The notes under the pieces were generated by a model, which searched no databases, was not told the origin of the DNA, and was given only the letters and a program-made list of their open reading frames with translations. DNA of 64,000 nt from Zoogloea oleivorans (GTDB lineage: Bacteria > Pseudomonadota > Gammaproteobacteria > Burkholderiales > Rhodocyclaceae), in assembly GCA_030157785.1 (NCBI GenBank), contig JAOAUC010000080.1, forward strand, positions 1 to 64,000. The letters run 5' to 3'. Position numbers and translations under genes: made by a program. This document shows positions 28,711-35,663 of this stretch, one piece after another. Positions within the stretch are counted from its first letter, which is position 1; every line of letters starts with the position of its first letter.

Positions 28711-28730
28711 TTTTTTGATGCCTCTTTTCC

Positions 28731-33196: not shown

Positions 33197-33436
33197 ATGG
33201 AATCCCACACCCACAGCATCGCCAACCTGTTCGCCCAGCTCGGCCTGCCCAATGACGAGGAAGCCATCAGTGCGTTCATCGGCACCCACGCCCCCCTGCC
33301 CCACGATGTGCAACTGACCAACGCAAGCTTCTGGACACCGACTCAGGCCGCTTTTCTGAAGACGGAGATTGCCGAAGACGCCGACTGGAGTGCCGTGATC
33401 GACACCCTCGACGTGCAGCTTCGCGCAAAGAGCTGA
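33197..33436 (+). CDS. DUF2789 family protein
   Basis: 79 aa acidic soluble protein matching DUF2789 (start MESHTHSIANLFAQLGLPN; FIGTHAPLP and FWTPTQAAFLKTEI follow). Function unknown. AGGAG lies before the ATG. The 182 bases upstream, between it and the divergent FMN reductase, show no other gene. Confidence 0.82.
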   Translation: MESHTHSIANLFAQLGLPNDEEAISAFIGTHAPLPHDVQLTNASFWTPTQAAFLKTEIAEDADWSAVIDTLDVQLRAKS

Positions 33437-33440
33437 ACGC

Positions 33441-34667
33441 TCAGGCGTCCACCAGCAGAAAGCGCTGGGGATCGACACCCCACTTGTCGGGCACTTCTGC
33501 CGACACGATGCGGTCGCCCCCACCGCTGCCCAGCTTGCGCCCCAGGTCCACAACTTCCGGCTTGATGTAGCCGTTTGACTTGGTACTGAAGAAGACCCGC
33601 AGGCGCGGGGTGAGCAGGCTGTTGTCGTTCTGCTCGATCACCACGCCCAGGCGACCGGATTCAAGCCTCACGAGGCTGCCCACCGGATAGATACCCACAC
33701 AGCGCATGAAGGCCTGGAGCAGCTTCTGGTCGAAGTGGTTGGTGCTCCACTCCCACATCTTGCGCAGGGCCTCGGCCGCCGGCAGACCCTTGTGATAGCA
33801 GCGGTCAGCGGTAATGGCGTCGTAAACATCGACGATCGCTGCCATGCGGGCCATGCTCGAAATGGCATCGCCGGCCAGTTTGTCCGGATAGCCGGAGCCA
33901 TCAAGACGCTCGTGGTGATGTCGCGTGATATCGAGCGGCACCGGGCCGATTCCATCTGTTTCCAGCAGCACCGAATGACCATCGCCCGGATGCTGCTTGA
34001 TCAGATCGAACTCGGCGTCGGTCAGCCGCCCGGGTTTGTTGAGCACCTCGTCCGGCACCTTCATCTTGCCGATATCGTGAAGCAGGCCGCCGATGCCTCC
34101 CTGCCGCAACTCATCTCCCGTCAGGCCTAGAGAGCGCCCGAAGGCGATCATCAGCGTGCACACGCTGACCGAATGCAGGAAAGTTTAGTCGTCCTTGTTC
34201 TTGATGCCGATGAGCCCCATCAGCGCGCCGCTGTTACGCAGCACCGAGCCGGTGATCGCCTCGACTACCGGCTCCGCATCCTCCAGCGACACCGCCTTGC
34301 CCAGACGCACATCGCTCATCATCGTGCGCACGACCTTGTGGGCTTGCTCGTGCACCTTGCGGGCACGGGCCATTTCCTCACGCACGGAAACCCGCAAGAT
34401 CTGGTCCGGCGGCGCACTCAAGGCAGCAATGATCTCTTCTTCCACCGCCACCTTCACCTTCTCGGCAGCCACGGCTTCCACATCATCCAGCCCACGGCTG
34501 GTATCGATATAAACGTGCTGGATGCCGGCGTCGACGATACGGCGCAGATCGCCATCCGCCTTCAGGGCAAACTGTGCACGCCAGAAGGGATGGGACATCC
34601 AGTCGCCACACATTTCATGGATGAACATGCCGGGCCTGAGCCGGCCCACGGGAATTTTCTTGAGCAT
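33441..34667 (-). pseudogene. HD-GYP domain protein interrupted by an in-frame TAA
   Basis: Cyclic-di-GMP phosphodiesterase-type protein: an N-terminal DUF3391 domain (from MLKKIPVGRLRPGMF at 34667) and a C-terminal HD-GYP domain with GGLLHDIGKM (HD), HHHERLDGSGYPDKL (GYP) and YDAITADRCYH. The reading frame is continuous except for a single TAA at 34187-34185 after KNKDD; the codons on both sides encode GIKNKDD and TFLHSVSVCTLM, so a Tyr codon (TAC) at this place is the likely original. Restart at GTG 34163 would omit FLH, part of the HD fold. One base change would restore a 408-residue protein of normal length. Confidence 0.85.
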
Positions 34668-34798
34668 TGGGGAAAAGTCGGGAAATGCTGGGCTTGTCTG
34701 TCTCGGGGATTAACGGTCTGCCCACCCCACACCTTGAGTCGTGACGTGTGACAGATTGCAAAGCAATGTGTGCAACAAGGCACAAGATATACACCCGC

Positions 34799-34804
34799 TA
34801 TAAT
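34799..34804 (+). promoter_or_regulatory. -10 element upstream of uppP
   Basis: A perfect TATAAT lies 35-40 bases before the uppP ATG at 34839, giving an expected transcript start near 34811. The -35 is unclear. This is the only convincing promoter element in the 171-base gap between the HD-GYP gene and uppP. Confidence 0.6.
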
Positions 34805-34838
34805 GCGGGCTCTTTTTGCACCGCACACTCAATCGTTC

Positions 34839-35663
34839 ATGGACATCATCCTGCTCCTCAAGGCGCTGATCCTCGGCGTAGTCGAAGGTCTGACCGAATT
34901 CCTGCCGATCTCCAGCACCGGCCACCTGATCCTCGCCGGCGACCTGCTCGGCTTCAACGATGACAGGGGCAAGCTCTTCGAGATCGTCATCCAGTCGGGC
35001 GCCATCCTCGCCGTGGTGTGGGAGTTCCGTGAGCGCATCGCCCGCACCTTCTCCGGCCTCGGTCGCGACCGGGAAGCCAACCGCCTGGTCCTTAACCTCT
35101 GCATCGCCTTCCTGCCCCTCGCCGTGCTCGGCCTGGCTTTCGGCAAGGCTATCAAAGCCCACCTGTTCGCCCCGCTGCCGGTAGCTGCCGCGTTCATCGT
35201 CGGTGCCTTTGTAATCCTGTGGGCAGAGCGCAAGAGCCACCGGGTGCGTGTCGAAACCGTCGATGAAATGACGCCGCTGGACGCCCTCAAGATGGGCCTC
35301 GCCCAGGCCTGCGCGCTGATCCCCGGCACCTCCCGCTCTGGCGCCACCATCATCGGCGGCATGCTCTTCGGCCTGTCCCGCAAGGCGGCCACCGAGTTCT
35401 CCTTCTTCCTGGCGATCCCGACCCTCGGCGTGGCCACGGTTTACGAACTCTACAAGGAGCGTGCTCTCCTCAACGCCGACGACATCAGCATGTGGATCGT
35501 CGGCTTCGTCGCCGCCTTCGCCTCCGCCTTCCTGTGCGTACGCTGGCTGCTGCGCTACATTTCCAGTCACGATTTCGTGCCCTTCGCCTGGTACCGCATT
35601 GTCTTCGGCATTGTCGTGCTGGCTACCTGGCACTTCGGCCTGGTGGAATGGACGGCCCACTAA
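34839..35663 (+). CDS. uppP: Undecaprenyl-diphosphatase UppP (BacA)
   Basis: Inner-membrane enzyme dephosphorylating undecaprenyl pyrophosphate to recycle the cell-wall lipid carrier; its loss raises bacitracin sensitivity. 274 aa. Signature segments are [20 protein letters not shown] near the N-terminus, and [11 protein letters not shown] with the catalytic Arg/Ser region, plus about eight hydrophobic helices. The ATG at 34839 fits the family; a longer in-frame start at 34770 would lie upstream of the promoter. Its end overlaps the next gene by 16 bases. Confidence 0.96.

Follow-up and report, generated by a model that had tools for sequence, protein, structure and literature searches.

A probable recent nonsense mutation in a conserved DUF3391 and HD-GYP gene of one Zoogloea lineage

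PA4108 of Pseudomonas aeruginosa is an HD-GYP phosphodiesterase that degrades c-di-GMP in vitro via a pGpG intermediate, and its N-terminal domain is described as uncharacterised (PMC3774798). VC2497 of Vibrio cholerae, which carries DUF3391 and HD-GYP domains, was inactive in all assays of the paper that describes it (PMC4212101). As PA4108 is active and VC2497 was inactive in those assays, activity should not be assumed for every DUF3391 member. We take the N-terminal domain of PA4108 to be DUF3391, which gives a DUF3391 plus HD-GYP layout of about 400 residues. The gene studied here lies in a 64,000-nucleotide stretch of Zoogloea DNA (the window); by domain description it has the same layout as PA4108, but it is cut by a stop. 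VC2497, likened on the same basis, has the same named domains but is intact. Pseudomonas loci among the relatives of the window gene showed 48–57% identity over the HD-GYP half.

The best known structure by sequence profile was PmGH (4mcw, 4mdz, 4me4; E 3.8e-51), and the best by fold was Bd1817 (3tm8; E 3.1e-11), with PmGH next (E 2.8e-10); both have the HD-GYP fold. None of the seven solved structures matched by profile carried the DUF3391 label. PmGH shares the His of the first ligand column as well as the HD, HHE, and GYP motifs, but has Glu at the column of codon 161, which is an invariant Tyr in the aligned orthologues (59/59). This Glu is presumably part of the trinuclear metal site of PmGH, and the comparison suggests that DUF3391-type enzymes may bind metals differently from PmGH. 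V. cholerae cGAMP phosphodiesterase 3 has Tyr at this column, like the aligned DUF3391-type HD-GYP proteins.

Direct reading of the window revealed an in-frame TAA on the minus strand at 34187–34185, codon 161 of a frame running from 34667 to 33441 that consists of 160 codons, the TAA, 247 codons, and a normal stop. The features of the locus are as follows:

34188..34667, minus strand: 5′ part, 160 codons, DUF3391 (PF11871) and linker
34185..34187, minus strand: in-frame TAA, codon 161; a Tyr codon in the relatives read
34173..34175, minus strand: codon 165, His, presumed to be the first metal ligand in the HD-GYP active site, downstream of the stop; invariant in 59/59 aligned orthologues
34161..34163, minus strand: GTG codon 169, an earlier proposed restart; past His165, so that its product lacks this residue
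33444..34184, minus strand: 3′ part, 247 codons, HD-GYP (PF13487, PF01966) and C-terminal beta part, severed from the gene start

A domain profile search assigned the 5′ part to DUF3391 (PF11871; E 4.4e-37, 128.1 bits against a cut-off of 27.8) and the 3′ part to HD-GYP (PF13487 HD_5; E 1.7e-29, 103.2 bits), with a further match to PF01966 HD. The HD, HHE, and GYP motifs all lie in the 3′ part (LLHDIGK, HHHERLDGSGYP). The N-terminal DUF3391 domain and the HD-GYP domain with its motifs are thus both present, while the TAA at codon 161 prevents them from being read in a single open frame. These results bear out a first-pass annotation of the window, which held that one stop splits an otherwise intact gene whose halves share a frame and that the first product loses the HD domain: the TAA precedes the whole HD-GYP part. 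Judged by its sequence, the window gene is a broken copy of a DUF3391 plus HD-GYP member rather than a functional one in its present state. The neighboring genes are ordinary (cytochrome c′, MipA, Tll0287-like, FMN reductase, DUF2789, BacA/UppP, and UPF0227). A 192-aa antisense open frame lies opposite the HD-GYP gene (34173–34751, plus strand) and a 316-aa one opposite uppP (34710–35660, minus strand); both were taken as putative GC-rich shadow frames.

The host genome belongs to Zoogloea and is a draft of 4.69 Mb in 87 contigs, 87% complete. The best named relatives of the gene were Zoogloea records, among them Z. ramigera NBRC 15342, in a set of 80 loci kept out of 547 confirmed. The orthologue was found in a single open frame in 21 of the 22 other Zoogloea genomes (at least 404 codons, stop-free, 87–96% identity over the 3′ part); the remaining genome (G133, 80% complete) held only distant paralogues. 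At the codon level, the same annotation had expected a Tyr codon at the break and suggested comparing close relatives there; when this check was run on 20 of the 21 genus orthologues (G132 was left out), all 20 had Tyr (19 TAC and one TAT). Both Tyr at the stop column and the His four residues past it were present in 79 of the 80 named loci, the one other locus not spanning this region, and the Tyr161 and His165 columns were both invariant in a 59-row alignment drawn from these loci. In a family-wide search of 395 genomes, 298 of which gave a match, 149 of the 150 matches listed, counted by hand, were free of internal stops, and the sole exception, with one TAA, was the window gene. The orthologues are therefore intact in relatives and the lesion is private to one lineage, as in a nonsense pseudogene. 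Another HD-GYP match in the genus (G036:C10:63619-64143, plus strand) showed one internal TGA interrupting what is otherwise a long frame (1105 codons).

The effect of the cut on the protein was evaluated on a structure predicted for the unbroken orthologue from Z. ramigera (mean pLDDT 90.2, pTM 0.86). In this model, codon 161 falls near the start of helix 158–179, the HD-GYP domain's first helix, and His165 lies on the same helix. By sequence profile, His165 aligns with the PmGH His at the first ligand column, a residue that we take to be a metal ligand in the PmGH structure. As the stop lies ahead of this first metal-binding His, the whole active site would be missing from the first product. 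A restart at the GTG at 34163 had been proposed as a rescue of the enzyme; it was rejected, since the invariant His at codon 165 precedes codon 169. The ATG at codon 173 also comes after His165, and among nearby start-like codons only the CTG at codon 164 keeps it. We infer that the allele is null for the enzyme.

The age of the lesion was assessed against the closest relative, G122, which is 95.6% and 96.4% identical over the 5′ and 3′ halves and shares 88% DNA identity with the window across 59,282 aligned columns. The dN/dS between the two was 0.037 for the 5′ part and 0.045 for the 3′ part. With changes polarized by 19 outgroups and six silent sites of unclear polarity dropped, the window branch carried 11 amino-acid and 57 silent private changes and the G122 sister branch 5 and 43 (Fisher p 0.43); any relaxed selection after the lesion, if the lesion is real, would be too recent to see. 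None of the 11 amino-acid changes fell at a column invariant in the 59-row alignment, as compared by eye. The neutral fraction of the window branch was estimated at ~3%, with an upper bound of 8–10% when the sister branch served as the yardstick of constrained rate and of 11–15% when no constrained changes were allowed for. On these substitution counts, both halves look to have been under purifying selection up to very recently, and the low dN/dS and small neutral fraction indicate that the lesion is either recent or an error. The earlier view that the event is recent and the gene otherwise undamaged agrees with these values, and no other damage was seen in either half.

We consider it probable that one Zoogloea lineage has very recently acquired a nonsense substitution that turned this conserved DUF3391 plus HD-GYP gene into a pseudogene. 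Judged from its domains, the intact gene probably encodes a c-di-GMP phosphodiesterase of PA4108 type. One substitution would have changed the Tyr codon 161 into TAA, and the product would be a free DUF3391 fragment without catalysis. The break could be tolerated if the cell's remaining HD-GYP enzymes make up for much of what is lost, and might even be favored in floc-forming life, where more c-di-GMP would give more matrix. The window genome contains 15 HD-GYP matches and three DUF3391 matches, the window gene counted in both, and the other two DUF3391 genes are open. In V. cholerae, it is reported that single HD-GYP mutants were unchanged in motility and biofilm, and that allelic-exchange inactivation of VC2497 failed and plasmid disruption was needed (PMC4212101). 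The resistance of VC2497 to allelic exchange, together with retention of the orthologue in 21 of 22 relatives, argues against easy dispensability, and the inactivity of VC2497 in assays argues against the loss of an active enzyme here. A wrong consensus base would, moreover, look identical to a real mutation in the assembled sequence.

The alternative that a consensus error in sequencing or assembly hides an intact gene in the cell is accordingly to be weighed, and we regard it as unlikely but far from negligible. The stop is a singleton, as the other 149 listed family matches and the 21 genus orthologues all lack it; the gene shows no decay; the assembly is a draft in 87 contigs; and it differs from most relatives by a transversion, a change that oxidised-guanine library damage can also cause. 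However, when the predicted genes of four relatives were surveyed against the window, inspection showed no further credible internal stop and no credible frameshift among the 57–61 matched window genes, so that the local error rate looks low. The matched genes numbered 60/81 for G122, 57/80 for G137, 61/85 for G134, and 57/78 for G125, covering 18,322, 17,208, 17,658, and 16,744 codons, respectively, and the compared stretch of each relative was longer than the window. In the same order, 4, 4, 7, and 7 rows had an internal stop and 1, 1, 0, and 0 rows spanned several frames, against a background of 4–11 stop rows for each comparison of the relatives with one another or of window genes with G122. 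Only 34187 recurred in all four relatives with conserved sequence on both sides. A row at 28716, seen by three relatives, sits at a gene-model start, just upstream of start 28731, and the remaining stop and multi-frame rows were attributed, on inspection by eye, to over-extended starts or to non-coding or wrong-frame ORFs.

With the window otherwise clean by inspection, a random substitution error becomes less likely. One broken gene in ~60 is roughly the normal load of a bacterial genome, which also counts against an error. The statement that the window is clean is based on the four-relative survey and inspection of its rows by eye, not on an automatic count. Two automatic approaches had been set aside. 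A codon-statistics detector returned 87 candidates for 400 kb of contig C55 and 20 for the window, most of them antisense shadows or the normal ends of genes, and missed the known case. A homology survey that covered 104 kb of contig C80 and filtered by third-position differences let antisense frames pass, gave at least 36 stop rows from G122, and was discarded as a count; 34187 was among its stop rows, and the other G122 rows inside the window lay, by eye, opposite or upstream of gene models.

Another reading is that the stop is tolerated because the gene has come to function as a pair of polypeptides, with DUF3391 made as a free protein and the HD-GYP enzyme initiated on its own right after the stop, for instance at the CTG of codon 164 (AAGGA 13 bases before) or the GTG of codon 169; a single mutation would then have separated a putative sensor from its enzyme. 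The stop does separate the DUF3391 part from the HD-GYP domain, low dN/dS is kept in both halves, and a start at CTG 164 would retain His165. However, AAGGA and CTG are plain coding sequence in nearly all intact relatives (G138 has CTT), so that no ribosome-binding role is needed to explain them, and CTG start codons are rare. Starts at GTG 169 or ATG 173 lose His165, the cut falls inside a predicted helix rather than a loop, and a recent event explains the low dN/dS equally well. Nor is the position of the stop at the domain border special, as 6 of the 95 nonsense codons that one base change could create in the G122 gene lie no more than 10 codons away, which is not significant. We therefore hold a functional split to be very unlikely.

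That a suppressor tRNA or recoding lets the TAA be read through is more doubtful still. The frame is intact on either side, but TAA serves as an ordinary stop in the host, for example at the end of uppP (35661–35663), and no suppressor tRNA was found among 30 scanned tRNA loci (of 31 matches in an incomplete genome), which included one tRNA-Tyr with anticodon GTA and no TTA anticodon. The window genome gave only these 31 tRNA matches, and the 30 scanned loci lacked tRNAs for Asn, Asp, Cys, Glu, Ile, and Lys; the missing species fit an incomplete draft or a MAG. The host genome may be a MAG, and the stop base may thus be a mixed allele. A phase-variable on/off switch, put forward solely in the first-pass annotation, can practically be dismissed: neither a repeat nor an invertible element marks the switch point, with no tandem repeats in 33300–34900 and no reported direct or inverted repeat arm covering 34185–34187, and codon 161 was in the sense state in 20 of the 20 relatives read.

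Returning to the nonsense mutation as the preferred explanation, the overall interpretation in that annotation stands as to a single base-level lesion, an expected Tyr, a recent event, and a lost HD domain, and falls as to the phase-type switch and the GTG restart. The locus adds one more ordinary case of a gene interrupted by a nonsense codon; the intact gene belongs to an already known family, and no new mechanism is involved. Its importance is modest, mainly as a warning to annotators that codon 161 needs read support before a pseudogene is called. Zoogloea form flocs in activated sludge. Reasoning from general c-di-GMP biology, more matrix could be produced in this lineage if it alone has lost a probable c-di-GMP phosphodiesterase.
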